From Thermoleophilia bacterium (GTDB lineage Bacteria; Actinomycetota; Thermoleophilia; Miltoncostaeales; Miltoncostaeaceae), in NCBI GenBank assembly GCA_020438485.1, contig JAGQUM010000028.1:1-50781 (forward strand): 50,781 nt of DNA, in the 5' to 3' direction. The notes beneath the pieces are model-generated. The model made no database searches. It saw only the letters and a program-made list of their open reading frames with translations, and was not told the DNA's origin. Both the position numbers and the translations under genes were made by a program. Positions 3,829 through 50,781 of the stretch are shown here, piece after piece. Each line of letters opens with the position of its first letter. Position 1 is the stretch's first letter.

Positions 3829-3894
3829 TCGCCGGGGACCGGGGTTAGCGCGCCGCCCGCCGGTCGCCGCCGCTGGGGCATCCTGGCGGCGGCG

Positions 3895-5609: not shown

Positions 5610-5623
5610 CGCCTCCCCCTTGC

Positions 5624-5673: not shown

Positions 5674-5694
5674 AAGAGCGAAGGAGAGCAGTCC

Positions 5695-6117: not shown

Positions 6118-6167
6118 CGTCCGGGGCCCGGCCTGCGATGCTGGCTCACGCCGACCGGGGGGACGCG

Positions 6168-7111
<944 letters not shown>

Positions 7112-7115
<4 letters not shown>

Positions 7116-9307: not shown

Positions 9308-9346
9308 GGTGACCTCCGTGGGCACGGTCGGGGCCGGAACCAGACG

Positions 9347-9352
9347 TTTATA
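9347..9352 (-). promoter_or_regulatory. Candidate -10 box for the MMPL gene
   Basis: TATAAA on the minus strand, inside an AT-rich island (9346-9355), about 40 nt before the MMPL start. No convincing -35 is seen. Confidence 0.4.
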
Positions 9353-9360
9353 TCTGCCCC

Positions 9361-9492
9361 CGCCCGGCCCGCGATACCCCCGGCAACACGATGGTCACAC
9401 GAACCCCCGCGCGGGGATGCGCCGGGTTTCTCCCCGGGCGGGGGGCATGCGGGGCGCGGGGAGCCCGGGGCTGCCCGCCGCCAGGCCCTCGC
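9361..9492 (-). other. Gap downstream of the response regulator; possible terminator
   Basis: A very GC-rich stretch with overlapping dyads, chiefly CCCCGGGC (9432-9439) facing GCCCGGGG (9463-9470), and a palindromic CCCCGCGCGGGG near 9403-9414. It could end the response-regulator transcript (minus strand). There is no T-tract and no ORF with coding character. Confidence 0.3.
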
Positions 9493-10257: not shown

Positions 10258-10263
10258 GGGGGC

Positions 10264-10269
10264 ATCTTA
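10264..10269 (-). promoter_or_regulatory. Leaderless -10 box for the response regulator
   Basis: TAAGAT on the minus strand, 6 nt before ATG 10257. The same spacing recurs at seven other genes in the window. Confidence 0.5.
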
Positions 10270-10311
10270 CGGACCGACCCCCGCGCGTTTCGGGCGACGC
10301 GCGCGCGCCGA

Positions 10312-10317
10312 TATCCT
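10312..10317 (+). promoter_or_regulatory. -10 box for the leader ORF / kinase operon
   Basis: TATCCT, 6 nt before GTG 10324. Transcription would begin at or just before that GTG. Confidence 0.5.
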
Positions 10318-10323
10318 GGCGTC

Positions 10324-10362
10324 GTGAGGCATCGACCCCGGCAACGCGGGCGGTCGGGGTGA
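10324..10362 (+). CDS. Candidate 12-codon leader peptide coupled to the kinase
   Basis: Starts with GTG 10324, exactly 6 nt after TATCCT, and ends with TGA 10360-10362, which overlaps the kinase GTG (10359-10361) as GTGA. The peptide is Arg-rich (V-RHRPRQRGRSG). The kinase start itself has no clear ribosome site, so re-initiation after this ORF would explain its translation. The ORF is too short for coding statistics; support is positional only. Confidence 0.4.
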   Translation: MRHRPRQRGRSG

Positions 10363-11840: not shown

Positions 11841-12772
11841 ACCCCACCTGGGACGATGCGCTGGAGGACTTCGCGGACCGGCTGACCCGGCAGGGGCGCC
11901 GGCGCCGCGTGCTGTCGCCGCGCACCCGCGCGGCGTACGTGAAGGACGCGCGCCTGCTGGGCGACTGGCTTGCGGCCCGCGGGGTGGACGGCCCCGCGGC
12001 CGTCACGCCGTCCGCGCTGGACGCCGCCCTCCGCGACCTGGGTTGGTCGGCGTCGACCCGGGCCCGGGCGCTGACGGCGGCGCGGGGGTGGCTCGAGCCG
12101 CATTTCCCGCCGGGGCGGTCGCCCGCCGACCGCCTGGCGCGCCCGCGCGTCAATGCGCCGCTGGTCACCCGCATCAGCCAGGACGAGGCCCGCGCCCTCG
12201 TGGACGGGCTGGGGCGGCCGGTAGCGGCCGGCGACGACCACCTCGACCCCCTCGCGCTGCGCAACAGGGCGCTGGTGGAGCTGCTGTACGGGTCGGGCCT
12301 GCGCCGGCAGGAGGCGTGCGACCTGCGCCTGGCCGACATCGACTTCGAACACGACGTCGTGCGCGTGGCGGGCAAGGGCGGGCACGTGCGCACGGTGCCG
12401 CTGACCGAGCCCAGCGTCGCGGCCCTGCGCGACTGGGTCACCGGCGGCCGCCCCGTGCTGGCGGCCAACGACGCGGGCCGGGCGCGGGACGAGGTGTTCC
12501 TGTCGCGCACCGGACGCCCCATGGATGGTTCCACGGTGTACCGCGTGGTGTCCGCCCAGCTGCGCCGCATCGGTCGCCGCGGCGGCCCCCACGTGCTGCG
12601 TCACGCCGCCGCCACGCACCTGCTGGAGGGACCGCCGGGGCGGGAGGGCGCGCACCTGCGCGTGGTGCAGGAGGTGCTGGGCCACGCCAGCCTGGCCACC
12701 ACGCAGCGCTACACGGGAGTGACGACGCGCGACATCCAGGGGATGCTGCGGCGGGGGCACCCGCGCGGATGA
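11837..12772 (+). CDS. Tyrosine recombinase, XerC/XerD-like (first of two)
   Basis: A 311-residue site-specific recombinase. The N-terminal SAM-like core-binding domain (about 1-100) includes SPRTRAAYVKD. The catalytic domain has all expected residues: Arg156 in YGSGLRRQEA, Lys180 in GKGGHVR, His252 and Arg255 in PHVLRHAAATHL, His283 in LGHAS, and the nucleophile Tyr292 in TTQRYTGV. A short Gly/Pro/Arg insertion (266-271) lies between the HxxR motif and the last helices. GTG 11837 overlaps the kinase stop and follows AGGAGG. Its stop overlaps the next recombinase (ATGA). A role in chromosome dimer resolution is the default; no att-like repeats or phage genes are nearby. Confidence 0.9.
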   Translation: MNPTWDDALEDFADRLTRQGRRRRVLSPRTRAAYVKDARLLGDWLAARGVDGPAAVTPSALDAALRDLGWSASTRARALTAARGWLEPHFPPGRSPADRLARPRVNAPLVTRISQDEARALVDGLGRPVAAGDDHLDPLALRNRALVELLYGSGLRRQEACDLRLADIDFEHDVVRVAGKGGHVRTVPLTEPSVAALRDWVTGGRPVLAANDAGRARDEVFLSRTGRPMDGSTVYRVVSAQLRRIGRRGGPHVLRHAAATHLLEGPPGREGAHLRVVQEVLGHASLATTQRYTGVTTRDIQGMLRRGHPRG

Positions 12773-13776
12773 GCCTCACCGGCGACGGGTTCCGCCGGCT
12801 GGCGGAGGGCTTCCTGGCCGGCCGCGGCAGCCGCAACACCCGGGCGGCCTACGCACGGGACCTGGCGGTGCTGGCCCGCGCGCTGGGCCTGGGCGACGAC
12901 GCGGCGCCCGACCCGGGGGCCCTCGACGGGGTGTTCGGGGTGGAGGACGACCCGCGCGCGGCCGCCGCCGCACGGGCGCTGGCAGACCTGGGCGAGGAGT
13001 GGTTCGACGGCTGGCGCGACGCGCTCGAGGGGCGCCCGGCCACGCGCCGCCGCCGGGTGGCCGCCGTGCGCGCCCTCACGGCCTGGTCGTCCGCCGCGTT
13101 CGGCGTGCCCAATCCCGCGGGCGACCTGCGCCCTCCTGGTGGGCCGGCGGGGCCGGACCGCCTGCGGCGTGAGGTCGTCGCCCTGGCACCGGCGGCCACC
13201 CGCCGCCTGTGCGAGGCCGCGGCGCGCCCCGGGCCCCTGGGGCAGCGCGACGGCGCACTCGTGGAGCTGTTGTACGGCTGCGGCCTGCGGGCCAGCGAGG
13301 CCATCGGCCTCGACGTGTCGTCGTGCCACCTGGACGACGCCGGTGACCCGCGCGTGGTCGTGATGGGCAAGGGGGCCAAGGCCCGCGCCGTCGCCGTGCC
13401 CGCGGCGGCGCGCCGGGCGCTGGATGCGTACCTCCGCACAGGGCGCCCCACGCTGCGGGCCCGCGGTCCCCGCGCCGACACCGACGCGGTGTTCGTGTCG
13501 CGCAACGGCCGGCGTCTGGGGCGTGCCGACGTGTGGCGCATCGTCACCGCCGCCGCGCGGCGGGCGGGCCTGGCCGACGAGGGCGGCCGCGTGTTCCCGC
13601 ACGCGCTGCGGCACTCGTGCGGTACGCATCTCATCCAGTCCGGCATCGACATCCGCTACGTCCAGGTCCACCTGGGCCACGCGTCGCCGGTGACCACCGA
13701 GGTCTACACCCACGTGACGGCCGCCCACCTGCGCGGCGACTTCGACCGGGCCCATCCGCGCGCCCGGGCGGGTTAG
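12769..13776 (+). CDS. Tyrosine recombinase, XerC/XerD-like (second of two)
   Basis: A 335-residue recombinase, diverged from the one just upstream. The core-binding domain (about 1-120) has SRNTRAAYARD. It carries a spacer of about 60 residues (DAAPDPGA to EEWFDGW) not seen in its partner. The catalytic set is complete: Arg174 (YGCGLRASEA), Lys201 (GKGAKAR), His278 and Arg281 (PHALRHSCGTHL), His304 (LGHAS) and Tyr313 (EVYTHV). The ending resembles canonical XerD/XerC more than its partner does. The ATG overlaps the previous stop by 4 nt, so the two should be made together and could act as a heteromeric pair. It ends convergent to the lipoprotein gene, sharing TTAG. Confidence 0.9.
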   Translation: MSLTGDGFRRLAEGFLAGRGSRNTRAAYARDLAVLARALGLGDDAAPDPGALDGVFGVEDDPRAAAAARALADLGEEWFDGWRDALEGRPATRRRRVAAVRALTAWSSAAFGVPNPAGDLRPPGGPAGPDRLRREVVALAPAATRRLCEAAARPGPLGQRDGALVELLYGCGLRASEAIGLDVSSCHLDDAGDPRVVVMGKGAKARAVAVPAAARRALDAYLRTGRPTLRARGPRADTDAVFVSRNGRRLGRADVWRIVTAAARRAGLADEGGRVFPHALRHSCGTHLIQSGIDIRYVQVHLGHASPVTTEVYTHVTAAHLRGDFDRAHPRARAG

Positions 13777-14624
13777 GGGCAGCGGATCCCGAGGGGGCGC
13801 AGTGCGGCCCGCAGGCGCGCGACGTTCTCGGCGTGGTCCCGGGCGGCCTGGGTGGCATCCTGCCACGACGACGTGCGCACCGACTCGGTGTATCCCGCCA
13901 GCAGTTCTGCGTCGCGGGCGACGATGTCCCGTACGGCGCGCTTGGCCGCCGTGGCCGTGGGCGGCGCGGGCGTGGCGGCCACCGTGCGCGCGAACTCCAG
14001 CAGCGCGTCGCGCACCTTCAACGCCCACGCCTGCGCCCTGCCCGGGTCGGAAGGGCGCCCGGGGACGTCGAGCGACGCGGGCAGCGCCCGGCACGCCGTG
14101 CCCACGTCGGCGGCGAAGTCGCCGGTGGGCGCCACGGCGCGGGCCTCGCGCACCATCGCGGCGGCGTACGCCCGGTACAGCGGCGCGCCCATCTCGGCCG
14201 CCGCGCAGCGGGGGGCCTGGAGCGCCCGGGCCCGGGAGTTCAGGTCGGCGAACGCGGCGGTCGCGTCGTCGGGCCTGGCACGGACCTCGCCCGGGGGGCG
14301 CGTGGCGATGCCGTACTCCGACACGAACGCCTGGCGCACCCGTGCCAGGGCGTCGCGCAGCCCGCGGACGTCGCCGGCCGTGGCGCCCCGTCCGTCGAGC
14401 CTGCTGAGCCGCGCGTCCACCAGGTTGTACGCCGACAGGACGTCCTCCAGGTGCGCCAGGCGGCCCGGGCCGGCCGGCACGGGCGGAGGCCGCAGCGTCA
14501 CGGCCTGGGAGGCGCAGATCGCGTCGGCGCGGGCCGTCACCTCGGCGTCCGACAGGCCGCACGCCGCCACCCCCGCCGCCGCGGCGACGGCGCAGCCCAC
14601 CGCTGCGGCGGCGCGCCGGGTCAC
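13773..14624 (-). CDS. Predicted lipoprotein, unknown function
   Basis: A 283-residue protein beginning with Arg-Arg, a hydrophobic Ala/Val stretch and a lipobox-like GVAAC, so it is probably exported and lipid-anchored. The mature part is helical, with a Cys pair early (ADAIC) and later Cys in APRCAA and DVGTACRALP, and ends LGIRCP. No catalytic motif is recognised. The GTG start at 14624 overlaps the ddl stop (GTGA), making it the last gene of the long cell-wall operon. That placement suggests an envelope role, perhaps as an accessory to the PASTA kinase or penicillin-binding protein, but nothing in the sequence proves it. Confidence 0.75.
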   Translation of the reverse strand: MTRRAAAAVGCAVAAAAGVAACGLSDAEVTARADAICASQAVTLRPPPVPAGPGRLAHLEDVLSAYNLVDARLSRLDGRGATAGDVRGLRDALARVRQAFVSEYGIATRPPGEVRARPDDATAAFADLNSRARALQAPRCAAAEMGAPLYRAYAAAMVREARAVAPTGDFAADVGTACRALPASLDVPGRPSDPGRAQAWALKVRDALLEFARTVAATPAPPTATAAKRAVRDIVARDAELLAGYTESVRTSSWQDATQAARDHAENVARLRAALRPLGIRCP

Positions 14625-15649
14625 GCCGCGGCCGGCGCGCCCGCCCGCTGAAGGGCCAGGTCCACCAGACGACGCACGGTCTGCGGGTAGGGGACGCCCG
14701 CGGCGGCCATCAGCGACGGGTAGGCGCTGGTGGGGGTGAAGCCCGGCATGGTGTTGAGTTCGCTGACGAACACGGCGCCTGACGGGTCCACGAGGAAGTC
14801 CACGCGGGCCAGGCCGTGGCAGCCCACCATCTCGAACGCGGCCTCCGCCAGGCCGCGCAGCCGCTGGGCCAGCGCCGGCTCGGCCGCGGCGGGGATCGTC
14901 ACCTCCGCCCGGCCCGCCGTGTACTTGGTCTCGTAGTCGTACCAGTCGGCGTCGTACGTGATCTCGCCCGGCGGCGACACGACGACGTCGCCGGGGGCGC
15001 CCAGCACGCCCACCTCGAGTTCCCTTGGCGACGGCACCGCGCGCTCGATGAGCACCGTCGCGTCGTGCTCCAGCGCCAGCGCGACGGCCGCGGCGAGACC
15101 GTCGGCGGCGTCCACCTTCGAGATGCCCACGCTCGAGCCGAGGCGCGCGGGCTTGCAGAAACACGGGTACCCGACCACCTGGGCCACCTGCCGGCGCACC
15201 GCGTCCGGCTGCCCGTCCCAGTCGGACGGGCCGATCACGACTGCCTCGGCGACGGGCAGGTCGTGCCCCATGGCGAGGGCCTTGAACAGCGCTTTGTCCA
15301 TGGCCACGGCCGACGCCGCCACGCCCGCGCCGACGTACGGTATGCGCGCCATCTCGCACAGCCCCTGCACGGTGCCGTCCTCCCCGTTCGGGCCGTGCAG
15401 GACGGGGAACACCACGTCCACGGGCTCGGGCTCGCCGCCGTCCAGCGGCATCAGCACGCCGCGGCCGTCGGGTCCCGGGCCCAGCATCACGGGGCGCCCG
15501 TCGCGCGTCCACGCGCCGTCCCTGTCGATGAGCACCGGCGTCGCGTCGAGGCCGCCCTCGGCCAGCGCGCCGAGGACCCCCCGCGCCGACACGAGCGACA
15601 CGTCGTGCTCGCCGCTGCGGCCGCCCATCAGCACCAGGACCCGGGTCAC
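14621..15649 (-). CDS. ddl: D-alanine--D-alanine ligase
   Basis: A 342-residue ATP-grasp enzyme joining two D-Ala for the peptidoglycan stem peptide. Motifs: GGRSGEHDVSL at the N-terminus (first D-Ala site), FPVLHGPNGEDGTVQG, KPARLGSSVGISKV (ATP site), the omega-loop YDYETKYTAG with the Tyr-Lys pair typical of true Ddl rather than VanA-type D-Ala-D-Lac ligases, and SELNTMPGFT (Mg2+ and product site). ATG at 15649, 9 nt after the PASTA-kinase stop, within the same operon. Placing the ligase directly behind the kinase that senses muropeptides is a sensible functional link. Confidence 0.95.
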   Translation of the reverse strand: MTRVLVLMGGRSGEHDVSLVSARGVLGALAEGGLDATPVLIDRDGAWTRDGRPVMLGPGPDGRGVLMPLDGGEPEPVDVVFPVLHGPNGEDGTVQGLCEMARIPYVGAGVAASAVAMDKALFKALAMGHDLPVAEAVVIGPSDWDGQPDAVRRQVAQVVGYPCFCKPARLGSSVGISKVDAADGLAAAVALALEHDATVLIERAVPSPRELEVGVLGAPGDVVVSPPGEITYDADWYDYETKYTAGRAEVTIPAAAEPALAQRLRGLAEAAFEMVGCHGLARVDFLVDPSGAVFVSELNTMPGFTPTSAYPSLMAAAGVPYPQTVRRLVDLALQRAGAPAAA

Positions 15650-35539: not shown

Positions 35540-36661
35540 TCAGGCCGCCGCGGCGAGCCGTTGCATCACGGCGCGGCGCCGCTCGGGGGCCGACGCCATC
35601 AGCGCCGGGTCGCCGAGCGCGGCCATGTCGACCAGGTCGACGTGCTCCAGCCCCGCGGCCCGGAACGTCGCGAGACGGTCGGCGACCACGTCGGGCGTGC
35701 CGTGCATGAAGTAGCGGCGCATGACCTCGCCGGGAACCGCCGCGGCCGCCGCCAGGGCCTCGTCGCGCGTGAGTTCCGTGGGCACGAAGTCCAGGAGGCC
35801 CCAGCGCGTGGCGAGGGGATGCTCGGTCCCGGCGCGCTCGAACTCCTCGGCCGGCGCGGTCAGCGCCACGAGGCGCAGCAGCAGCGACTCGTCCAGCAGG
35901 CGGTCCGCCTCCTCCGCCGTGTCGGTGAGCAGCAGCCACGCGTAGAGCCCGGCCCTCACCGCGTCGGCGGGGCGGCCCGCCGCGACGCTCGCGGCCCGCA
36001 GGTCCGCCAGGCGTGCCCCGTACTCGGCGGCGTCGAGGATCACGGGGAACCATCCGTCGGCCAGGCGCCCGGCGGCGGCGAGCACGCGGGGCCGGTGGGC
36101 GGCCATCCAGATCTCGGGGGGTGTGTCGCCGTAGGGCCGCGCGCCGAGGATGGCGTCGGTCAGCCGGAAGTGGTCGCCGTCGAAGCTGACGGGTTCGGGC
36201 GTGCCCCACAGCAGGCGGATCACCTCGACGGCCTCGATGAGCCGCGACGCCGTCCGCTCGTACGGCAGCCCGAACGGCACGATGTTCTCGGCCTCACCGA
36301 CCCCGATGCCCAGCACGCTACGGCCCCGGGTGACGTGGTCGAGCGTGATGAACGTCTGCGCGATCACGGCGGGGTGCCGCCGCACGGCATCGGTGACGCC
36401 CGTGGCCAGACGGATTCGCTGCGTGTGCTGCGCCACGGCCGCCATCAGCGCCGTGGGATCCAGGAACACGTGCGGCGTGGAACCCGGCAGGGCCTGCGGC
36501 ACGAGGTCCTGCGTCCACACCCCGGGCGGGAACCAGTGCAGGAAGTGGTCCGAGTACCAGATGGTCTCGACGCCATCGGCCTCCAGGCCCTGGGCCTGCG
36601 CGACGACGGCGTCCGTGGGCGGGCGGGTGATGCCCAGCGCCCCGATGGTCAACGGCCGCAT
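35540..36661 (-). CDS. Luciferase-like (LLM class, probably F420-dependent) oxidoreductase
   Basis: A 373-residue TIM-barrel flavin or F420 enzyme. Key segments: IGALGITRPPTDAVVAQAQGLEADGVETIWYSDHFL at the front (seen in pieces), the barrel strand TQRIRLATGVTD, GRSVLGIGVGEAENIVPFG, EVIRLLWGTPEPVSFDGDHF, and PEIWMAAHRPRVLAAAGRLADGW. This arrangement matches F420-dependent mycobacterial enzymes such as methylenetetrahydromethanopterin reductase-like proteins. The substrate is unknown. ATG 36661 has AAGGAGA 6 nt upstream, and TAGGAT (36689 down to 36684) could be the -10. Confidence 0.88.
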   Translation of the reverse strand: MRPLTIGALGITRPPTDAVVAQAQGLEADGVETIWYSDHFLHWFPPGVWTQDLVPQALPGSTPHVFLDPTALMAAVAQHTQRIRLATGVTDAVRRHPAVIAQTFITLDHVTRGRSVLGIGVGEAENIVPFGLPYERTASRLIEAVEVIRLLWGTPEPVSFDGDHFRLTDAILGARPYGDTPPEIWMAAHRPRVLAAAGRLADGWFPVILDAAEYGARLADLRAASVAAGRPADAVRAGLYAWLLLTDTAEEADRLLDESLLLRLVALTAPAEEFERAGTEHPLATRWGLLDFVPTELTRDEALAAAAAVPGEVMRRYFMHGTPDVVADRLATFRAAGLEHVDLVDMAALGDPALMASAPERRRAVMQRLAAAA

Positions 36662-39033: not shown

Positions 39034-40542
39034 GTGACGCCGCCCGATTCCGTCCGCGCGGACGACCGCCTCGGTCCCGACGTATTGCGCATCGCGGCCG
39101 TGGTGGTGGTGGGCGCGTTCATGTCGATCCTCGACACCACGATCGTCAATGTCGCGCTCGACCGGCTGGCGATCGACTTCCGCACCGGCTTCGCCGACAT
39201 CCAATGGGTCGTCACGGCCTACATGCTGGCCATGGCGGCGGTGATCCCCCTGAGCGGCTGGGTCGCCATGCGGTTCGGGCCGAAACACGTGTTCATCGCG
39301 TCCATGGCGCTGTTCGCCGCGGCGTCGGCCCTGTGCGGGTTCGCGTGGTCCCTCGAGTCGCTGGTCGCGTTCCGGGTGCTGCAGGGGGCGGGCGGCGGGC
39401 TGCTGATGCCCGTCGGGCAGATGATGCTTGCCGCGGCGGCCGGCCCGCACCGGATGGGCAGGGTGATGAGCGTCATCGCCGTGCCCATGCTCATCGCTCC
39501 CGTCATCGGCCCGGTGCTGGGCGGATTCCTCGTGGACCAGGTCGGCTGGGAATGGATCTTTCTCGTCAACGTCCCCGTGGGCGTCGCCGGCGTCGTGCTG
39601 GCGCAGCGCCTGCTGCGTGCCGACGCTCATCGCGCCGCCCCCGCGTGGCCGCTGGACGTTGTCGGGGTCGCCCTGATGGCCGTGGGCATACCGGCCATCA
39701 CATACGGACTGGCCGAAACGGGCACGCTGGGCACCATCGCCGAGCCCCGGGCGTGGGGGCCCATCGCCGTCGGGCTGGCCCTGACGGCTGCGTACGCGCT
39801 GTACGCGCTGCGCCGCGACCGGCCGCTGCTCAACGTGCGGCTCTTCGCGAACGGGGGTTTCGGGGCGGCGTCGGTGACCGCGTTCGCCCTGGGCGCCGCG
39901 CTGTTCGGCGGCATGATCCTGATGCCGTTGTACGAGCAGGGGCCGCGCGGCCATACGGCGCTCGAGACGGGTTTGCTCCTGGCCCCCCAGGGGCTGGGAG
40001 CGGCGCTCAGCGCCCCCGTCGCGGGGCGACTCACCGACCGGGTGGGCGGGGGCATCGTCACGCTCGTGGGGCTCACGATCCTGTGCATCGGGACGATCCC
40101 GCTGACGCGCCTCGGCGCCGACACGCCGCAGTGGCAGATCATGCTGGCCCTCTTCGTGCGGGGTCTGGGCCTGGCGGGCTCGATGATGCCGGCGTTCGCC
40201 GCCGCGTACGCCACGCTGTCGCGCGCGGACATCCCGGATGCCAGCTCCCAGCTCAACGTCGTGCAGCACGTCGGTGGGTCCATCGGCAGTGCCCTCATGG
40301 CGGTGATCCTCGCCAACCGCCTCGGCGGTGAGGGATCCCATCCCGAGGCGACGCCGGCCCAGCGGGCCGCGCTGCCGCTGCCGGTCCGCGAGAGGCTGGC
40401 AGAGGCGTACGCCCACACGCACTGGTGGGTGCTGATCCTCACTCTCGTTGCGTTCGTGCCCGCGTTCGTGCTGTTCAAAGTGGAGCGGCGCGCCCGGCGG
40501 GGAGCGGACGCGCCGGTCGTGGCACCGCCGCCGGAGCTCTGA
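39034..40542 (+). CDS. DHA2-family MFS drug/H+ antiporter (EmrB/QacA type)
   Basis: A 502-residue transporter with about 14 TM segments, the DHA2 number. Signatures: FMSILDTTIVNVALDRLAIDF in TM1 (motif D), WVVTAYMLAMAAVIPLSGWVAMRFGPKHVF (motif A region), FRVLQGAGGGLLMPVGQMML (motif B with Arg) and APVIGPVLGGFLVDQVGWEWIFLVNVPVG (motif C and following), all given here as family landmarks. It likely exports toxic hydrophobic compounds by proton antiport. GTG 39034 follows TACCGT by exactly 6 nt, so the mRNA is probably leaderless. No MarR or TetR regulator is adjacent. Confidence 0.92.
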   Translation: MTPPDSVRADDRLGPDVLRIAAVVVVGAFMSILDTTIVNVALDRLAIDFRTGFADIQWVVTAYMLAMAAVIPLSGWVAMRFGPKHVFIASMALFAAASALCGFAWSLESLVAFRVLQGAGGGLLMPVGQMMLAAAAGPHRMGRVMSVIAVPMLIAPVIGPVLGGFLVDQVGWEWIFLVNVPVGVAGVVLAQRLLRADAHRAAPAWPLDVVGVALMAVGIPAITYGLAETGTLGTIAEPRAWGPIAVGLALTAAYALYALRRDRPLLNVRLFANGGFGAASVTAFALGAALFGGMILMPLYEQGPRGHTALETGLLLAPQGLGAALSAPVAGRLTDRVGGGIVTLVGLTILCIGTIPLTRLGADTPQWQIMLALFVRGLGLAGSMMPAFAAAYATLSRADIPDASSQLNVVQHVGGSIGSALMAVILANRLGGEGSHPEATPAQRAALPLPVRERLAEAYAHTHWWVLILTLVAFVPAFVLFKVERRARRGADAPVVAPPPEL

Positions 40543-40566
40543 CGCCCGGGCGACGGCGGCGGCGTC

Positions 40567-40572
40567 TACACT
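40567..40572 (+). promoter_or_regulatory. Leaderless -10 box for the DUF445 gene
   Basis: TACACT, 7 nt before ATG 40580. Confidence 0.45.
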
Positions 40573-40579
40573 CGCGCGG

Positions 40580-41863
40580 ATGACGGCGACCCGGCGTCAA
40601 CCCCGCGATCAGATGGCGGTGCCCGACGCGCCCGGCGCCGACGAGGAACGTCGCCGGAACCTGCGCCGCATGAAGGCCGTCGCGTTCGGCCTGCTGGTCT
40701 TCGCGGCCATCGTGTACGTGGCGACGCTCGGCGACGGCGGGTTCCTGGGATACGTCAACGCCGGGGCGGAGGCGTCGATGATCGGCGCGCTGGCCGACTG
40801 GTTCGCCGTCACCGCGCTATTTCGCCATCCGCTGGGCCTGCCGGTGCCCCACACCGCGATCATCCCGACGCGCAAGGACGCGCTGGGGCGCAGCCTGCAG
40901 GAGTTCGTGGCCGACAACTTCCTGGCCGAGGATGTGGTGCGCGAGAAGGTGGCCCGCGCCGACGTGGCCCGGCGGGTGGGGGAGTGGCTGGCGCACCCCC
41001 GCAACGCCGCCCGCGTCAGCGCCGAGGCGTCACGCCTGGCATCCCACGCCCTGCGAAATATGCGCGACGACGACGCCGCGCTGCTGCTGGAGAACGCGGT
41101 GCTCACCCCGCTGTCGGAGCGCTCGTGGAGCCCGTCCGCCGGCCGCCTGCTGGATCGGCTCGTGGACGCCGGCGGCCACCACCGGGCCGTGGACCTGGCC
41201 ATCGACCACCTGCACCGGTGGCTGCTGGACAACGAGGAACGCGTCGTGGGGATCGTGCTCGAGCGGGCGCCCACGTGGACCCCGAAGTGGGTGAACGAAC
41301 GCATCTCGAGGCACGTGTACGACCAGCTCGTGGCATTCGTGCGCGACGTGCAGGCCAGCCCCCTGCACAAGGTCCGCCTCGGGCTCGACGACCTGCTGGG
41401 GCGTCTGGCGCGCGATCTGCAGAACGATCCGTACACCATCAACCGCGGCGACCGCGTCCTGTCGGGGCTCATCACGCATCCGCAAGTGCGCGCGACGCTG
41501 GTCGACGTGTGGGACCACATCCGCGCCGTCCTGCTGGAGGGCGCGGAGGACGCCGAGAGCCCCATGCGGGTGCGGCTGAACGACGCGCTTGGCGACTTCG
41601 CCCGGCGCCTCGGCCGCGACGCCGCCCTGCGGGCGCGCATCGACGCGCGCGCGGAGGACGTCTCGGGGTTCCTGGTGCGCACGTACGGCAGGGAGCTCGC
41701 CAGCGTCATCTCGGACACCGTCGAGCGGTGGGACGGCCAGGACGCGGCGCGTCGCATCGAGCTGCACGTGGGACGCGACCTGCAGTTCATCCGCGTCAAC
41801 GGCACCATCGTGGGTGGCCTCGCGGGCGTGGTCATCCATGCCCTCACCCAGGCCATCCACTAG
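40580..41863 (+). CDS. DUF445 family membrane protein
   Basis: A 427-residue protein. An N-terminal TM (about 33-51) is followed by a second hydrophobic segment with the family signature GAEASMIGALADWFAVTALFRHPLGLPVPHTAIIP. A long helical cytoplasmic or peripheral region (about 95-400) follows. The C-terminal GGLAGVVIHALTQA is a further hydrophobic helix that closes the family. The function of DUF445 (YjiN/YheB-like) is unknown. It is probably leaderless (TACACT 7 nt upstream) and sits 37 nt behind the DHA2 transporter, so the two could also share a transcript. Confidence 0.88.
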   Translation: MTATRRQPRDQMAVPDAPGADEERRRNLRRMKAVAFGLLVFAAIVYVATLGDGGFLGYVNAGAEASMIGALADWFAVTALFRHPLGLPVPHTAIIPTRKDALGRSLQEFVADNFLAEDVVREKVARADVARRVGEWLAHPRNAARVSAEASRLASHALRNMRDDDAALLLENAVLTPLSERSWSPSAGRLLDRLVDAGGHHRAVDLAIDHLHRWLLDNEERVVGIVLERAPTWTPKWVNERISRHVYDQLVAFVRDVQASPLHKVRLGLDDLLGRLARDLQNDPYTINRGDRVLSGLITHPQVRATLVDVWDHIRAVLLEGAEDAESPMRVRLNDALGDFARRLGRDAALRARIDARAEDVSGFLVRTYGRELASVISDTVERWDGQDAARRIELHVGRDLQFIRVNGTIVGGLAGVVIHALTQAIH

Positions 41864-43513: not shown

Positions 43514-44269
43514 ATGGAGCGGCCCGTCGAGCTGTCGATCGTGATACCGGCGTACAACGAGGAGCGCCGCCTGGCTCCCACGGTCCGGGCGTGGCTGGCG
43601 TACCTCGACGCGTACCCCGCGGCCGCGGAGCTGGTGGTCAGCGACGACGGCAGCACGGACCGCACCGCCGACGTGGCCCGGGACGCCGCGGCGGGCGACC
43701 CCCGCCTGCGGCTGGTGACCGGGGGGCCGAACCGCGGCAAGGGCGGCGCGGTGCGCGAGGGGATGCTCGCGGCACGCGGCGCGTACCGCTTCTACGTGGA
43801 CGCCGACCTCAACATCGCGCCGTCCAACGTCACCGCGGCCGTGGAGCTGCTGCGCCACCAGTGCGACATGGTCACGGGCCGCCGCAGCCTGCGCGAGTAC
43901 TCGCGTGAGGAGAGCAGCCCCGCGCGCGTGGCCGCCGGCGCCGCCGTCCAGGCGCTGCGCCGGGCCCTGTGGCTCACGCACGTCGCCGACAGCCAGGCCG
44001 GCTTCAAGGGCATGCGGGCGGCGCTGGCCGAGCGTGTGTTCCGGGCCGCGACCGTCACGTCGTTCGCGTTCGACATCGAGGTGCTGTACCTGGCCCGCCG
44101 GTTCGGGGCGCGCATCGTCGAGTACCCCGTGTCCGTGGAGTTCCGCGGCGAGTCGACGTACGACGTGCGGCGGCACCTGCCGCCGTTCTTGGCCGACATC
44201 GTCCGTATCCGCGCCAACGCCGCCCGGGGCGCGTACCCGGGACGGCCCGACCCCCAGGAGGCCGAGTGA
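43514..44269 (+). CDS. Family 2 glycosyltransferase (dolichyl-phosphate glucosyltransferase-like)
   Basis: A 251-residue GT-A fold enzyme. ELSIVIPAYNEERRL begins the nucleotide-sugar site, VVSDDGSTDRTADVA follows, then NRGKGGAVREGMLAARG, and the metal-binding DxD as FYVDADLNIAP. ADSQAGFKGM and FAFDIEVLYLARRFG match the ALG5/polyprenyl-phosphate glucosyltransferase branch. No TM is present, so it would act at the membrane surface to make a polyprenyl-phosphate sugar or a cell-wall glycan precursor. ATG 43514 is 6 nt after TAGGCT. Its stop overlaps the hydrolase GTG (GTGA). Confidence 0.88.
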   Translation: MERPVELSIVIPAYNEERRLAPTVRAWLAYLDAYPAAAELVVSDDGSTDRTADVARDAAAGDPRLRLVTGGPNRGKGGAVREGMLAARGAYRFYVDADLNIAPSNVTAAVELLRHQCDMVTGRRSLREYSREESSPARVAAGAAVQALRRALWLTHVADSQAGFKGMRAALAERVFRAATVTSFAFDIEVLYLARRFGARIVEYPVSVEFRGESTYDVRRHLPPFLADIVRIRANAARGAYPGRPDPQEAE

Positions 44270-45135
44270 TCCCCGGCACCACCACCCGCCGCGTCGCGTG
44301 CGGCGACGTCACGCTCGCGGTCCGCGAGGCCGGCGACGGTCCCCCCGTCGTGATGCTGCACGGCTTCCCCGAGCTGGGGTACTCGTGGCGGCATCAGGTG
44401 CCGGCCCTGGCCGGCGCGGGGTACCGGGCCATGGCACCGGACACTCGTGGCTACGGCGAGTCCGACCGGCCCGCCGCCGTGGAGGACTACGGCATCCAGC
44501 GGCTCATCTCCGACACCGTCGCGCTCATCGACGACGCCGGCGGCCACGCCCACCTGGTGGGGCACGACTGGGGCGGCGGCGTCGCGTGGGCCACGGCCGC
44601 TCTTCACCCCGCCAAGGTGCGCTCTCTGGGCATCCTCAACGCCCCCCACCCGGTGGCGTCGGCCGAGGCGCGGCGCGAGTCGGAGGCCCAGCGGGCGAAG
44701 AGCTGGTACATGCTGCTGTTCCAGTTCCCCGGCATCGCCGAGCGCTGGTTTGAGGCCGACGACTGGGCGCAGCTGCGCGCGATGGTCTTCGACAACGCCG
44801 CGCCGGGGACGTTCACGGACGCCGACGTCGACGTCTTCCTGGGCGTGTTCCGCGAGGAGGGGGCCGTCACGGCGGCGCTCAACTACTACCGGGCCAACAT
44901 GCCCCCCGAGGCCTGGCTGCGGGACCCGCCCGCGCTCCCCCCGGTGACCGTGCCCACCATGATCGTGTGGGGCGAGGGCGACACGTACCTGGGCGAGGAG
45001 CTGCTGGAGCGCTCGGCGGCGAAGTGCGCGGGCGAGTTGCGCGTGGAGCGGCTCCCCGGCGTGAGCCACTGGGTGCAGCAGGAGGCGCCGGACGCCGTGA
45101 ACCGCCACCTCATCGACTGGCTGTCGTCCCACTGA
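44266..45135 (+). CDS. Alpha/beta hydrolase, epoxide-hydrolase-like
   Basis: A 289-residue hydrolase. The oxyanion motif HGFPELGYSWRHQ is typical of soluble epoxide hydrolases. The nucleophile elbow GHDWGGGVAW has Asp as the nucleophile (HDWGG), which is diagnostic for epoxide hydrolases and dehalogenases rather than esterases. The acid is in TMIVWGEGDTYLG and the base His in GVSHWVQQEAPDAVN. The cap region has the conserved Tyr of ALNYYRAN. GTG 44266 overlaps the glycosyltransferase stop, so the two are translationally coupled. Its 3' end overlaps the convergent fusion gene by 26 bp. Confidence 0.88.
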   Translation: MIPGTTTRRVACGDVTLAVREAGDGPPVVMLHGFPELGYSWRHQVPALAGAGYRAMAPDTRGYGESDRPAAVEDYGIQRLISDTVALIDDAGGHAHLVGHDWGGGVAWATAALHPAKVRSLGILNAPHPVASAEARRESEAQRAKSWYMLLFQFPGIAERWFEADDWAQLRAMVFDNAAPGTFTDADVDVFLGVFREEGAVTAALNYYRANMPPEAWLRDPPALPPVTVPTMIVWGEGDTYLGEELLERSAAKCAGELRVERLPGVSHWVQQEAPDAVNRHLIDWLSSH

Positions 45136-47554
45136 CGTCGTCGTCCGGCGCCAGCGCGCGCCGGTCGAGCTTGCCGGAGGGCAGCTGGGGCAGCACATCG
45201 CGCACCCATACGGCCACGGGCGCGGCGTGCGGATCGAGACGCCGCGCCACGTGCCGGCGCAGGGCGACGGGGTCGACGCCCGACGCCCCGCGGGGCACGA
45301 CCCATGCGTGGACGCGCGTGAGTCCCCGGTCGTCGTCGACCCCGGCGACGGCGGCGGCGGCCACCTCGGCCAGCTCCATCAGCACGCCCTCCACGCGGGA
45401 GGGCACCACCCACCGGGCGTCGACCTTGAACAGGTCGTCCGCGCGCCCCACGTGGCGGTACACGTCGCCGTCGCGCACGAGGATGTCGCCCATGCGGATC
45501 CACTCGCCGTGCACCAGCTCGCGCGTCAGGTCGCGGCGACGCCAGTAGCCGGATGTGTTCGACGGGCACCGGATCCACAGCCGGCCGGGCGCACCGTCGG
45601 GCACCGGCGCCCCGTCCGGGTCGCGCAGTTCGACGTCGGCGCCGGGGACGGGCGTGCCGACGCGACCGTCCAGCGGATCGCCCGGGCGGGTCGACAGCAC
45701 GACGTTGCTGCATTCCGAGCACCCCAGGCCCTGCAGCACCTCAATGCCCGCCGTGTCGCGGAGGTGGCGCGCCACGGCGGGCGGCAGCGCGTCGCCCGAC
45801 GACACGGCCATCCGCACGCCGTCGAGCGCGCCGGGCGCCGGGTGCCGGTCGAGGAACGTCGCGAGCTGCGACCAGAACGTGGGTACGGCGGTCAGCACCT
45901 CGACCCCGTGCCGCGCCACGGTGTCGAGCGTCACCCGGGGGTTCGGCCGGGGCCCGCGCAGCACGGTGGTGGCGCCGCAGCCCAGCGGGCGAAAGAAGCC
46001 GTTGCCGAACCCGAGGCTGGTGAACAGCCGCGCGGCCGAGTGGCTCACCACCCCCGGACCCATGCCCAGCACCCGCCGGGCGTACCCCTCCACCGAGACG
46101 GCCATGTCGCGGTGGGCGTGCATCGCGCCCTTCGGACGGCCCGTGGAGCCCGATGAGTAGATGATGTACGCGAGGTCGTCGGGGTGCACCGGTGCGGCCA
46201 TGCGCTCGGGGCCGTCGGCCAGCGCCGCGGGGGGCATGCGGGGAACGCGGCCGGTATCGACGCCGTCCCCGGCCACCACCACCCGGGGAGCGCAGTCCTC
46301 CAGGATCGACGCGATCACGTCCGTCCCGGCCCCGGGGTCCAGCGGCACGGCGACGGCGCCCAGCGCGGCGGCCCCGAGGAACGCCGCCACCCACGACCGG
46401 CCGTCGGGCAGCGCCACGACGACGCGGTCGCCTCCGCGCACCCCCCAGCCCGCGAGCGCCCCGGCCGCGCGGCGGGCGGCGGCCGCCAGCCGCCGGTACG
46501 TCCACGCGCCCTCGTCGTCCACCACGGCGATCAGGTCGCCCCGGCCCTCCCGGATGTGCCGGCCCACCAGCGTGAAAACCAGGCTGGCCTCGGTGCGCTC
46601 GTGCCCGGTGGCCACCGGCACTGTCGCGCGGGCCGGCAGCGCCGTCTCCTCGATGCGGCACGACGCGGCCAGCAGATACGCCTCGAGGGGGACGCGGTTG
46701 GGCAGGGCCAGCACCACGTCGGTCGCCCCGGCGTCCGCCAGCGCGCCCAGCCTGTCGCGGACCTCGTCCGGCGTGCCCACCAGCCCCGTCGTGGCCAGCC
46801 AGCGGCGCAGCGCCGCCGGCGTCGTTCCCAGGGCGTCCGCCTCGGGGCGCAGCCACGCGTCGGCCTCATGCGCCGACCAGGCCGGCAGGCAGTACGTGTA
46901 GACGCACGCCGCGGGCCGGGGCCGTCCCGCCTCGGCCGCCGCTGCGTCGGCGATGTCCAGCCGGGCCCGCAGCTCGTCCGGCCCCGTCCATGCGGCGATC
47001 ACGCCGTCGGCCAGACGCCCGGCGTGGCGCAGCAGCACGGGCTTGTGGGCCGCCACCCACACGGGCAGCGCGGACGGGGCCGGGAGGTTCGGCGCGTTGC
47101 GCAGCGCCCCGGCGACGCGGGCGCCCGCCGGGTGGTCGCGCATGGCCAGCACCACGTCCAGCGCGTCGGTGAGACGCCGCGTGCGCTCGCGCCGCGAGGG
47201 CATCGGCACGCCGAATGCGGCGTGCTCGGCGGCGTCCGAGCCGGTCCCGAGGCCCAGGATGACCCCCCCGGAGCCGATGGCGTCGAGCACCGACGCCATC
47301 TTGGCCGCGAGGAACGCCGGACGGTACCCCGCGGCCGCCACGGCGACGCCCACCCGCGCCCCCGGCACCGTCGCTGCGACGCCGGCCAGGGTGGTGAAGG
47401 CCTCGAACGTGTCCACCGCCGGCATCCGGCCCGGGGCCTGGACGTGGTCGTTCAGCCAGACGTGGTCGGCGCCGTGGTCCACCAGGGCCTGCGCCGTCGC
47501 GCGCAGTGTGTGCCAGTCGCTCGCGTACTGGGGAAGGCGGACCCCGATGCGCAT
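45110..47554 (-). CDS. Fusion of an LLM-class oxidoreductase with an acyl/aryl-CoA ligase
   Basis: An 814-residue protein with two complete-looking enzymes. Residues 1-300 are a luciferase-like TIM barrel (MRIGVRLPQYA, ILGLGTGSDAAEHAAFGVP, LPVWVAAHKPVLLRHAGRLADGV, TGLVGTPDEVRDRLGAL), probably F420- or FMN-dependent. After a roughly 22-residue linker, residues 324-814 are an ANL-family ligase: YSSGSTGRPKGAMHAH (467-482), GLGCSECSNV, GEWIRMGDI, RADDLFKVDARWVVPSRVE and the C-terminal Lys795 in LPSGKLDRRAL. The DLFKVDARWV form is that of benzoate-CoA-ligase-like enzymes. Oxidation followed by CoA activation of one substrate is the natural reading. ATG 47554 is 6 nt after TAGCCT. Confidence 0.88.
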   Translation of the reverse strand: MRIGVRLPQYASDWHTLRATAQALVDHGADHVWLNDHVQAPGRMPAVDTFEAFTTLAGVAATVPGARVGVAVAAAGYRPAFLAAKMASVLDAIGSGGVILGLGTGSDAAEHAAFGVPMPSRRERTRRLTDALDVVLAMRDHPAGARVAGALRNAPNLPAPSALPVWVAAHKPVLLRHAGRLADGVIAAWTGPDELRARLDIADAAAAEAGRPRPAACVYTYCLPAWSAHEADAWLRPEADALGTTPAALRRWLATTGLVGTPDEVRDRLGALADAGATDVVLALPNRVPLEAYLLAASCRIEETALPARATVPVATGHERTEASLVFTLVGRHIREGRGDLIAVVDDEGAWTYRRLAAAARRAAGALAGWGVRGGDRVVVALPDGRSWVAAFLGAAALGAVAVPLDPGAGTDVIASILEDCAPRVVVAGDGVDTGRVPRMPPAALADGPERMAAPVHPDDLAYIIYSSGSTGRPKGAMHAHRDMAVSVEGYARRVLGMGPGVVSHSAARLFTSLGFGNGFFRPLGCGATTVLRGPRPNPRVTLDTVARHGVEVLTAVPTFWSQLATFLDRHPAPGALDGVRMAVSSGDALPPAVARHLRDTAGIEVLQGLGCSECSNVVLSTRPGDPLDGRVGTPVPGADVELRDPDGAPVPDGAPGRLWIRCPSNTSGYWRRRDLTRELVHGEWIRMGDILVRDGDVYRHVGRADDLFKVDARWVVPSRVEGVLMELAEVAAAAVAGVDDDRGLTRVHAWVVPRGASGVDPVALRRHVARRLDPHAAPVAVWVRDVLPQLPSGKLDRRALAPDDDVSGTTASR

Positions 47555-47586: not shown

Positions 47587-48105
47587 CTACGTCCCGGCGC
47601 CGCCCAGGACGATCACCACGTCCGCGCCCGCGGGCGCGGACGTGGCCACCGCGCCGGTCGCGGGGATGGGCTTGATGACGGTCAGGCCAAGGTCTTTCGC
47701 CACCCGCTGCGCGGACGGCCGCTTGCCGTCGCGGAAGTACACCGCCGTCGGGTCGGCCGTCGTCGGCGTGTTGCCGGCCGTCACGCCCGCGTACCCCAGC
47801 GCCTGGGCTCGCGCGGCGGTCTTGGCGGCGAACCCGGCGATGGTCGTGCCGTTCAGCACCGCCAGCTTGATCTCGGCCGGCTTGGGCAGCGAGGGCGCGG
47901 GCGGCGCCGCCGTGGTCGACACCGTCGTGCCACCGGTGGTGCTCGTGGATGCCTGCGGCGCGGGCGAGGACGGCAGCACCGACACGTTGCCGTCGTCCGA
48001 GCGCACGAACACGAACCACGTGAGAAGGAAACCCACCACCAGGCCGGCGGCGGCCACAACCGCGTAGCGCGCGAACACCCCCGCGTTGAATCCCTCGTCG
48101 GACAT
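47587..48105 (-). CDS. Membrane protein with LytR C-terminal domain
   Basis: A 172-residue protein. A short N-terminus is followed by one TM (about 12-32, VVAAAGLVVGFLLTWFVFV), a Ser/Thr/Pro-rich linker and an exported LytR_C domain (about 75-160). The LytR_C domain begins IKLAVLNGTTIAGFAAKTAARAQALGY and continues YFRDGKRPSAQRVAKDLGL. This domain is found at the end of LytR-CpsA-Psr cell-wall ligases and, as here, alone behind a TM anchor. It probably binds cell-wall polymer. I chose ATG 48105 after GGGTGG; GTG 48126 would add seven residues. TAGCAT (48144 down to 48139) may be its -10. Confidence 0.85.
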   Translation of the reverse strand: MSDEGFNAGVFARYAVVAAAGLVVGFLLTWFVFVRSDDGNVSVLPSSPAPQASTSTTGGTTVSTTAAPPAPSLPKPAEIKLAVLNGTTIAGFAAKTAARAQALGYAGVTAGNTPTTADPTAVYFRDGKRPSAQRVAKDLGLTVIKPIPATGAVATSAPAGADVVIVLGGAGT

Positions 48106-48212
48106 GAACCACCCAGCCAGCGACACCGGACGAAGGCGATGCTAGCCGAGGCGCCGGTCGTCACCGGGCCGGCCGGGGCCGCCCGCGGCTGGGCGACGCG
48201 GCGGCGGGATGG

Positions 48213-48365: not shown

Positions 48366-50781
48366 ATGCCCGACGGCCTTCAGCCCATGACCGATATCAG
48401 CGCCCCGCCGCAGCCCAACGATGCGCTGCACGCCGCGCTGGCCGACCCCTCCGCGGCATGGCCCGACGTGGTCCTGCGGCCCCACCAGATCGAGGCCCTC
48501 GACGAGCTCGCGGTGCGCCTCTCGCACGGGGTCGAGCGCACGTGGGTGGATGCGCCCACCGGATCCGGGAAGACGGTGATGTTCTGTGCGCTCGTGGCGG
48601 CCGTGGGCGGGTCCGCCACCGTGCTCGTGCCGCGCCGCAACCTTGCCGAGCAGACCGTGGGCGGCTTCCACCGGCACTTCCCGTCGGTCACGGTGTACGC
48701 GGACGGCGTGGAGACCGTCGGGCGTCCCGGCGTCTCGGTGGTGACGTACCAGGCGGCTCTGCGCCACGCCGACGCGATCGACTGGGAGTCGGTCGACCTG
48801 CTGGTTTGCGACGAGGCGCACACCGCGCTGGGCCAGCAGACCCGGCGCATGCTCGACCGGGCCAAGAACGCAGTCGTGGTGGGATTCACGGCGACCGGCT
48901 CCACCACCACCGGGCACGTCGAGCAGGTGTTCGGACCGGTGGCCACCACGCTCGACCGCGGATCGGCGATGGAGCGTGGCATCCTCGCGCCGCTACGTTC
49001 GCTGCGCGTCGAGAAGGCCGTCGACCTGTCGGACGTGGCGAAGGTGCGCGGCGACTTCGACCAGGGGAGCCTGGGCCGCGCCCTCGACCGGGCGCTGTGG
49101 CATCAGGCGTGCGCCGAGGTGTGGGCAGCGCACTTCGCCCCGCTCGACCTCGCGGGCGTCGCGTACACGGCCACCGTCGCGCAGGCGCACGCGCTGGCCG
49201 ACGAGATGCGTGCCCGGGGCGTGAAGGCGGCCGCCGTGTCGGGGCAGACGCCGGCCCGCGACCTGCAGCGCATCCTCAAGGAGTTCGGCGCGGGCATCAT
49301 CGACGTGTTGTGCAACGCCGACCTGCTCACCGAGGGCTGGGACGAGACCCGGGCGTCGGTCGTTATGCACCTGGCGCCCACCACCAGCGAGCGCGTTTTC
49401 GTGCAGCGTCTGGGTCGCGTCATGCGCCCGGCGCCCGGCAAGGAGGCGGTGTCGGTCGAGTTCCTGCCCAAGGGTGATCCCATGGGCGTCCAGACCAGTC
49501 ACGACGTGTTCGGGGTGGGGTGGTACAAGCCCCTCGGGCGCGTCGCCGGCCCGCCCGACGGGGGCGATGAGCGCAGCAAGCTGGCCCGCGCGGCGCGCAT
49601 GCTGTCCGAGAACGGCGAGGGCGCCGCGGAGCTCGTCAACCCGGCGGCCAACCACAACGAGATCGCCGCGGGCTTCAAGGACGGCGGGTGGCGGGAGGCC
49701 GACGCGGGAGTGCTGCGCGGCATCCTGCTCGAGGAATGGATCGACGCGGCGGCCAAGAACGCCACGTGTCAGGAGGTCGCCGACCGGGTGGCGGCCGGCC
49801 TGGCCCCCGAGGCCGGCCTGGCGTGGTGGGGCCTGTCCGGCGTGCTGGCGCGCCGCGCGACGGGCGGCAGCGACCAGCCGATGTGGCGCGAGTGGGCGAT
49901 GGCCCTCGTGATGCAGCCCGACATGCGGGCCATGCTCCCCGACGATGTCCCCCGCAAGGTGCTGGACCGCCTGCGCATGAGCGGGCGCGAGCGCCTGCGG
50001 GCCCTGTGGTACCACGCCAACGGGGCCGGCAAGTGGGACCGGGTCACGGCGCTCGAGCAGCTGGGCCGCTCCAGCGACCGCCGTCGCCGCTGGAATGCGC
50101 TGGACGAGGCCTCCGAGTGGGCGCCCGCATGGGCGTGGGACGTGTCCCGTGGCCTGTCCGAGGTGCACCGCCCCGGCCGCAACCAGGACGCCACGCGCAT
50201 CGCGGCGTGGGAGGCGCGCCACCTCATCGCCAACGGCGGCGAGGCCGCGATGCTGGCCGCGTGGCTGCGCGCCGCGGGGGGCCCGCCCCCCGAGCCCGTC
50301 GCACCCGCCGACGACAAGGTCCTGCGCCTCGGCCAGGCCGCACGCTTGGTCGTGCTGCTGGGGCCGGGCGACGTGCCGACCCGCCCCGAGCAGGTGCGCC
50401 TGGCCTCGCGGGCGGCCGCGGCGTGCGGCGGCTGGGCGCAGCTGCGCGGCATGTTGGACGCCCTGGACTTCTCGACCGCCGACGCCCGCCGCGCGCTGCG
50501 GGCCGCGGTCGGCGCGACGCATCCCAAGGCGCTGGCCAACAAACGCGCGTGGAACGCGCTGCGCACGCGGTTCCCCCGCCTGCCCAGCGCGGAGGACCTG
50601 GGCATCGGCGAGCAGCAGCGCCGCAAGGAGGGCGAGGAGGGGGCCAGCCGCAGCAGCCGCCGGCGCCGGCGCCGGCGCATGCACCTGAGCGCGGAGGACG
50701 GCGCCGTCACGACGACGGCCGAGGGTTCCGCGCCGGGGCCCGAGGCGGAGGCTGACGCACCGGCCGGGGCCGGCGAGGCCG
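48366..50781 (+). CDS. SF2 DEAH-box helicase with a long C-terminal extension (3' end cut)
   Basis: At least 805 residues, running off the window. The helicase core has a Q-like motif (LRPHQIEAL, about 38-46), Walker A APTGSGKT (63-70), Walker B CDEAH (148-152), motif III FTAT (174-177), and motif VI QRLGRVMR (347-354) after the TEGWDE segment. This is the type III restriction-subunit / XPB-like layout. Beyond about 400 there is a 400-residue helical extension with Trp-rich stretches (ASEWAPAWAWDVSR), then a basic run of seven Arg and an acidic Ala/Gly tail. No methyltransferase or nuclease gene is visible beside it. ATG 48366 fits GGAGAG; ATG 48387 is the alternative. Confidence 0.87.
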   Translation, partial: MPDGLQPMTDISAPPQPNDALHAALADPSAAWPDVVLRPHQIEALDELAVRLSHGVERTWVDAPTGSGKTVMFCALVAAVGGSATVLVPRRNLAEQTVGGFHRHFPSVTVYADGVETVGRPGVSVVTYQAALRHADAIDWESVDLLVCDEAHTALGQQTRRMLDRAKNAVVVGFTATGSTTTGHVEQVFGPVATTLDRGSAMERGILAPLRSLRVEKAVDLSDVAKVRGDFDQGSLGRALDRALWHQACAEVWAAHFAPLDLAGVAYTATVAQAHALADEMRARGVKAAAVSGQTPARDLQRILKEFGAGIIDVLCNADLLTEGWDETRASVVMHLAPTTSERVFVQRLGRVMRPAPGKEAVSVEFLPKGDPMGVQTSHDVFGVGWYKPLGRVAGPPDGGDERSKLARAARMLSENGEGAAELVNPAANHNEIAAGFKDGGWREADAGVLRGILLEEWIDAAAKNATCQEVADRVAAGLAPEAGLAWWGLSGVLARRATGGSDQPMWREWAMALVMQPDMRAMLPDDVPRKVLDRLRMSGRERLRALWYHANGAGKWDRVTALEQLGRSSDRRRRWNALDEASEWAPAWAWDVSRGLSEVHRPGRNQDATRIAAWEARHLIANGGEAAMLAAWLRAAGGPPPEPVAPADDKVLRLGQAARLVVLLGPGDVPTRPEQVRLASRAAAACGGWAQLRGMLDALDFSTADARRALRAAVGATHPKALANKRAWNALRTRFPRLPSAEDLGIGEQQRRKEGEEGASRSSRRRRRRRMHLSAEDGAVTTTAEGSAPGPEAEADAPAGAGEA

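Follow-up and report, generated by a model that had tools for sequence, protein, structure and literature searches.

Does the long reading frame at 45110-47554 on the (-) strand of contig JAGQUM010000028.1 (Thermoleophilia bacterium, family Miltoncostaeaceae; assembly GCA_020438485.1) encode a genuine fusion of two enzymes, and if so, which reaction might the two halves share? The window, that is, the whole 50,781-nucleotide stretch of DNA analysed here, had previously been interpreted from its letters alone, and this sequence-only reading proposed that a luciferase-like monooxygenase (LLM) family oxidoreductase and a ligase resembling benzoate-coenzyme A (CoA) ligase are joined in a single chain. 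We find that the fusion is genuine, conserved and specific to the family, and that it constitutes a new domain architecture built from known enzyme families. No characterised fusion of an LLM oxidoreductase with a benzoate-type CoA ligase was found in the literature searched.

Two complete enzymes share one reading frame

Translation of the open reading frame (ORF) gave an uninterrupted frame of 814 codons with an ATG start and zero internal stops. Three Pfam domains exceeded their cut-offs: Bac_luciferase (PF00296) at residues 8-278 (E 9.5e-33; 114 bits, cut-off 27.9), AMP-binding (PF00501) at residues 337-671 (E 5.5e-76) and AMP-binding_C (PF13193) at residues 721-795 (E 3.3e-11). Across 19 family members, the LLM motifs QY (9-10), NDH (35-37), PGR (41-43), YR (77-78), GxGxGS (101-106) and EH (110-111) are invariant, and the ligase motifs YSSGSTGRPKG (A3), GCSE (A5), GD (A7), GRADDLFK (A8) and PSGK (A10, containing Lys795) are conserved. 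The Pfam score together with the predicted barrel fold places the N-terminal half in the Bac_luciferase superfamily, while the two Pfam matches and the intact A3-A10 core motifs identify the C-terminal half as a predicted member of the ANL superfamily. Pfam and the alignment thus bear out the coordinates, domain calls and catalytic motifs of the sequence-only reading, which had described a full luciferase-like barrel and a full ANL ligase in one frame (Table 1). The LLM half alone yielded a good structure model (predicted local distance difference test (pLDDT) score 90.4, predicted template modelling (pTM) score 0.88), and the model of the whole protein (pLDDT 70, pTM 0.51) is too weak to inform on domain packing or channelling.

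Table 1. Coordinates of the fusion gene, its parts and its neighbours in the window
Feature	Position	Strand	Basis or remark
LLM + ANL ligase fusion, 814 aa	45110..47554	-	ORF scan, Pfam, family-wide homologues
LLM (luciferase-like) barrel, residues 1-298	46661..47554	-	Pfam, structure model, fold search
Inter-domain linker, residues ~299-324	46583..46660	-	Length and sequence variable, low model confidence
ANL ligase, benzoate-CoA-ligase type, residues 325-814	45113..46582	-	Pfam, fold match 4rlf
LytR_C-domain protein, probably membrane-anchored	47587..48126	-	32 nt upstream of fusion, same strand
Epoxide-hydrolase-like alpha/beta hydrolase	43969..45135	+	Convergent; true start probably near 44266
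Superfamily-2 helicase (ResIII/DEAD + Helicase_C)	48366..50780	+	Divergent; continues past window end

The fusion is conserved throughout one bacterial family

We searched 42 genomes of f1, the family to which the window belongs (taken to be Miltoncostaeaceae), where G000 is the window's genome and G001 its congener, and found both halves in one frame in 35. Full-length one-frame matches were recovered from 28 genomes by the first search and from two more (G029 and G033) by profile search; also counted are G010, G013, G015, G032 and G038, where contig ends cut the gene and the junction still lies in one frame. The congener carries the fusion at 72% identity to the window protein. Separate genes were found in three genomes: in G016 and G007 the halves are two overlapping genes with the LLM gene first (ATGA and GTGA, respectively), a sign of translational coupling, and in G005 they lie ~3.7 kb apart on the same strand. 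Neither half was found in G002, G014 or G022, and G024, whose contig ends inside the linker, was left undecided. The possible objection that the fusion is unique to this assembly therefore fails, and we give next to no credence to an assembly or frameshift artefact, which was rejected because the same frame recurs in 35 of the 42 genomes from different assemblies.

Beyond the family, profile searches of 257 other genomes of the class revealed no fusion, nor did a phylum sample of 386 genomes from outside the family. The closest LLM relatives in the class beyond f1 share merely 30-38% identity. No relative was found on viral contigs, and plasmids contained a partial LLM match at 41% only.

Two further observations concern the copies themselves. 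Two genomes that hold the standard copy also have a second, diverged version of the fusion, at L063 (G011:C71) and on G037:C91, which shares ~50-55% identity with the window protein; the gene neighbourhood of L063 is a different one. The f1 fusion gene is also carried by contigs (L039, L043 and L052) that were submitted as metagenome-assembled genomes of Acidobacteria or Bifidobacterium breve, and their titles are probably misassigned.

Long chance frames are common in high-GC DNA such as that of the window. The fusion goes beyond chance, since its homologues share the same two-domain frame and the ratio of non-synonymous to synonymous substitution rates (dN/dS, NG86 method) is well below 1 in both domains. 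Among close pairs, dN/dS was 0.05-0.20 for each domain, against 0.50-0.73 for the linker; the two halves are under purifying selection and the linker is relaxed. Between the window and its congener the values were 0.37 for the LLM half, 0.28 for the ligase half and 0.32 for the linker, the last spanning 24 codons and too short to interpret.

Genus-level groups were the same in separate trees of the LLM and ligase halves, as expected under shared inheritance, and all f1 rows came together in the combined tree with support of 100/100. A single clade of all fused rows was not rejected (approximately unbiased test, p-AU 0.548); a single fusion event is possible, and fission is likewise compatible with the data. 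The same result, along with an overlapping-gene state one step short of fusion, could also be accommodated if the domains had unrelated tasks, were merely co-produced and became fused by chance from overlapping ancestral genes. We consider this very improbable: the fusion has been retained through nearly the whole family, and the same pairing recurs outside it with different LLMs (see below).

The ligase half resembles benzoate-CoA ligases with an altered pocket

Benzoate-CoA ligases are nearest to the ligase half by hidden Markov model (HMM), PDB sequence search and fold, the top fold match being 4rlf, in support of the aromatic-acid-ligase character originally proposed. The best HMM family, TIGR02262 (benzoate-CoA ligase), gave 337-340 bits, below its cut-off of 375.25. 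In the pocket alignment, S513-L514 take the place of Ala-Tyr in the FAYGLGN motif of benzoate-CoA ligase, while N617-V618 occupy the position of His333-Ile334 in the MLHIF motif; N617 is invariant in 19 members, and the title of PDB entry 6m2o names His333 and Ile334 as mutated residues of benzoate-CoA ligase. Since Asn617 and Val618 replace these residues, the acid is probably other than plain benzoate. Thus, the protein shares the full ANL fold and motifs with the benzoate-CoA ligase family (TIGR02262; PDB 4rlf/4eat/2v7b) and differs from it in the sub-cut-off score, the changed pocket residues and the added LLM domain.

LLM domains also occur with an adenylating enzyme in one chain in non-ribosomal peptide synthetase (NRPS) and polyketide synthase (PKS) megasynthases (TIGR04020; PDB 6ket). 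However, the fusion scores 21.6 bits against a TIGR04020 cut-off of 244.45, and its ligase is of the benzoate-CoA type. A role in NRPS tailoring was rejected because this cut-off is so far from being reached. The fusion protein contains no carrier, condensation or PKS domain, and the scanned neighbours no carrier or condensation domain.

Eleven fusion-bearing genomes lack F420-biosynthesis markers

The sequence-only reading had allowed for either F420 or flavin as the cofactor of the LLM half. The nearest folds to the LLM-half model are those of Mer, Adf and FGD (Z ~29-31), followed by the flavin mononucleotide (FMN) enzymes SfnG and SsuD (Z ~28). Every curated F420-family NCBIfam cut-off was missed by a wide margin (93.3 bits against 231.4 for TIGR03560; 89.8 against 166.9 for TIGR03619). 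We set the protein beside both groups. With the F420-dependent oxidoreductases (Mer, Adf, FGD; TIGR03560/TIGR03619) it shares the barrel fold (Z ~30) and its nearest sequences, in contrast to the ~15-25% identity, the attached ligase and a host devoid of F420 markers. With the FMNH2-dependent monooxygenases (SfnG, SsuD/MsuD, RutA and bacterial luciferase) it shares the same fold (Z ~27-28) and a genome encoding a flavin reductase, and is set apart by ~17-20% identity, a shorter chain (~300 aa) and a ligase fusion that these enzymes lack.

As markers of F420 biosynthesis we used CofE (PF01996), CofH (TIGR03551 over cut-off) and F420-type CofD, the weaker PF01933 match; the stronger PF01933 match, from a family that also matches in E. 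coli, was taken as a YvcK-like paralogue and not as CofD. All three markers were missing from 11 f1 genomes (G000, G001, G003, G004, G008, G010, G012, G015, G017, G019 and G026), and every one of these carries the fusion. Their completeness reaches 95% in G000, 96% in G001 and 99% in the single-contig G012. Conversely, the three f1 genomes without the fusion contain all three markers. A flavin reductase (PF01613) was present in 11 of 12 genomes tested (G000 and 10 of 11 others), and in G000 it is not adjacent to the fusion (G000:C66:18364-18792, E 1.5e-36). According to published phylogeny, this superfamily's F420 enzymes descend from ancestors that depended on FMN, and some F420-dependent reductases can bind FMN as well (PMC6279831). 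On the basis of the missing markers in fusion-bearing genomes, the flavin reductase and this phylogeny, FMNH2 appears to be the likelier cofactor of the LLM half, and the F420 option is disfavoured by the window's own genome, its congener and G012 alike.

The opposing possibility is that the LLM half is a normal F420 oxidoreductase performing hydride transfer, and that the organisms with marker-less genomes take up F420 made by their neighbours, or that these genomes have gaps. This would fit the F420 enzymes found as best NCBIfam and structural neighbours and the CofE gene carried by roughly two in three of the tested f1 genomes. We regard it as doubtful given that the marker-negative genomes, some nearly complete, all bear the fusion, that the fusion-less genomes are all F420-positive, and that the family cut-offs were missed so widely.

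F420 biosynthesis is patchy across the family (G000-G036): several genera and the single-contig G012 are without it, while a single contig of G025 (C3) carries all of CofE, CofH and CofD. F420-negative genomes hold 4-16 LLM genes each, where counted. A second LLM-class oxidoreductase lies in the window itself (35540-36661 (-), Pfam E 2e-61); its best-fitting models are of the TIGR03619/Mer type, whose cut-offs it does not reach, and the genome has no F420-biosynthesis markers.

Unfused LLM and ligase genes are neighbours in other Actinomycetota

In other Actinomycetota, an LLM gene and a benzoate-type ligase gene directly adjoin or overlap at four loci (L085, L093, L101 and L112); the two genes converge at L096 and are two genes apart at L088. 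The recurrence of the unfused pair supports a shared pathway for LLM and ligase, as a lead rather than a test. At L093, L112 and L096, an adjoining gene resembles salicylyl-CoA 5-hydroxylase or 2-aminobenzoyl-CoA monooxygenase-reductase, with a flavin adenine dinucleotide/old yellow enzyme (FAD/OYE)-type architecture. A tryptophan dioxygenase gene lies close by at L101 and L096, and a kynureninase-like gene at L101. Genes of this kind belong to the aerobic 2-aminobenzoyl-CoA pathway of Azoarcus evansii, which as described has no LLM enzyme (PMC4539516); the pathway resembles the out-of-family loci in that such genes stand beside their unfused pairs, and differs from f1 in that the monooxygenase-reductase is lacking in the f1 genomes tested. 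The loci L093, L101, L112 and L096 may represent an extra LLM step in the aerobic anthraniloyl-CoA pathway. At L085 (G170, 2698-14872), the LLM-ligase pair is followed by genes with PPDK_N and PEP-utiliser domains (dikinase or phenylphosphate-synthase-like halves); genes for a branched-chain-type ATP-binding cassette (ABC) transporter and for a methylmalonyl-CoA mutase lie in the vicinity.

By analogy, these out-of-family clusters suggest that CoA activation may precede the LLM step, because anthranilate in such clusters has its own source (kynureninase) and the LLM need not make the acid. The reverse order was implied by the sequence-only reading, in which one substrate passes from the redox step to CoA activation: the LLM would turn an aldehyde or ketone into an acid by luciferase or Baeyer-Villiger chemistry, and the ligase would then add CoA. 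Bacterial luciferase oxidises aldehydes to acids, and the scheme is chemically neat in that the ligase requires an acid. In its favour, too, the LLM forms the N-terminal side of the fusion and is encoded by the leading gene of the split operons. Gene order, however, is uninformative on reaction order, and with tryptophan dioxygenase and kynureninase supplying anthranilate in out-of-family clusters, oxidation first seems unlikely. Of the original proposal, the link between the halves stands, as fused, overlapping and neighbouring forms all occur, while on the order of steps the genes found side by side in other families tilt towards CoA activation before oxidation, and not towards its redox-first scheme.

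A candidate two-step reaction on a CoA thioester

We tentatively favour, with a confidence that stops a little short of even, a family-wide bifunctional enzyme in which the ligase makes a CoA thioester and an FMNH2-dependent LLM oxidises the same skeleton, CoA activation being the likelier first step. The C-terminal ANL domain would adenylate a carboxylic acid, benzoate-like or otherwise hydrophobic, and form its CoA thioester. The N-terminal barrel would oxidise the same carbon skeleton in a flavin-dependent step, the most probable cofactor being FMNH2 from a free flavin reductase rather than F420. Activation followed by thioester oxidation would be the likelier order, as in aerobic 'hybrid' aryl-CoA pathways. 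The parts of this scheme that we infer are FMNH2, the order of steps, the class of acid and the use of CoA, not of a carrier protein, as the acceptor.

A more specific version appears rather unlikely. It envisages a self-contained aerobic enzyme for aryl-CoA, or cyclic acyl-CoA, whose barrel uses FMNH2 to attack or open the ring by hydroxylation, epoxidation or Baeyer-Villiger oxidation; in some members, the epoxide hydrolase encoded beside it would carry out the following step. If correct, it would describe a hybrid pathway with a luciferase-type monooxygenase acting on a CoA thioester, fused only in f1 and unfused in other Actinomycetota.

Several results weigh against the two-step thioester scheme. 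No catabolic operon surrounds the fusion gene in f1 loci. Of the known enzymes of aryl-CoA ring attack none was found in f1: the aminobenzoyl-CoA monooxygenase/reductase (NF006101-like) had no full-length match in 28 f1 genomes, and PaaA/PaaC-family oxygenase (PF05138) was absent from 15. The LLM neighbours outside the family belong to a different subfamily (~25% identity), and several of these loci entered the sample through a match that extended into the LLM region, which biases the pair frequency upward. Finally, the nearest HMM, sequence and fold relatives of the LLM half are F420 enzymes (Mer, FGD2 and Adf), all remote, with a small margin in fold score towards them (Z 30.7 for Mer against 28.4 for the FMN-dependent SfnG). 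Two known routes were rejected for f1 on these grounds: the anthraniloyl-CoA pathway, whose key monooxygenase-reductase is missing, and a Paa-type (phenylacetyl-CoA) epoxidase pathway, whose oxygenase family is absent.

The LLM superfamily abounds in uncharacterised members. One of them is linked here, through three independent arrangements (fused, overlapping and neighbouring), to acid substrates of a definite class, which makes an 'unknown LLM' a testable two-step reaction. Should CoA thioesters prove to be what the LLM acts on, aerobic aromatic degradation would gain an enzyme class. That a barrel nearest to F420-labelled families persists in genomes without F420-biosynthesis genes advises caution over automatic F420 labels, and makes the fusion LLM a test case for cofactor switching in this fold.

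Genes around the fusion

The LytR_C gene, which the sequence-only reading does not mention, is a likelier operon partner of the fusion than the epoxide hydrolase. Where it is present, which is at 12 loci, the gap to the fusion is always -4 to 32 nt: five loci of genus g9 show a 4-nt overlap, and at the remaining ones the gap is -1 to 32 nt. This tight pairing couples a membrane or envelope protein with a CoA ligase-oxidoreductase. One explanation would be a biosynthetic, envelope-linked role, in which an acid destined for a lipid, pigment or wall component is activated by the ligase and tailored by the LLM, co-expression with LytR_C reflecting this function. Such a role would sit well with the position of the LytR_C gene directly upstream, with the lack of catabolic neighbours and with retention of the fusion in small genomes of 1.4-2 Mb in which the aromatic-CoA oxygenases searched for were not found. 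We nevertheless judge it improbable: several members keep the fusion without a LytR_C gene at the locus, adjacency alone is weak evidence, and among ligases with a known structure the benzoate-type ones come closest.

On the other side of the fusion, the alpha/beta hydrolase is closest to epoxide hydrolases among known structures and is a convergent neighbour in 12 of 21 loci. Its overlap with the fusion, already remarked on in the sequence-only reading, is real (26 bp, tail to tail), but because the genes converge they do not form one operon. The epoxide hydrolase was also rejected as an obligate partner, being missing from the fusion locus in the g9 genomes examined.

Further along the window, a DUF445 protein (PF04286, E 3.9e-111) of unknown function is encoded at 40448-41863 (+). 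The divergent helicase gene serves as a syntenic landmark in 18 of 21 loci.

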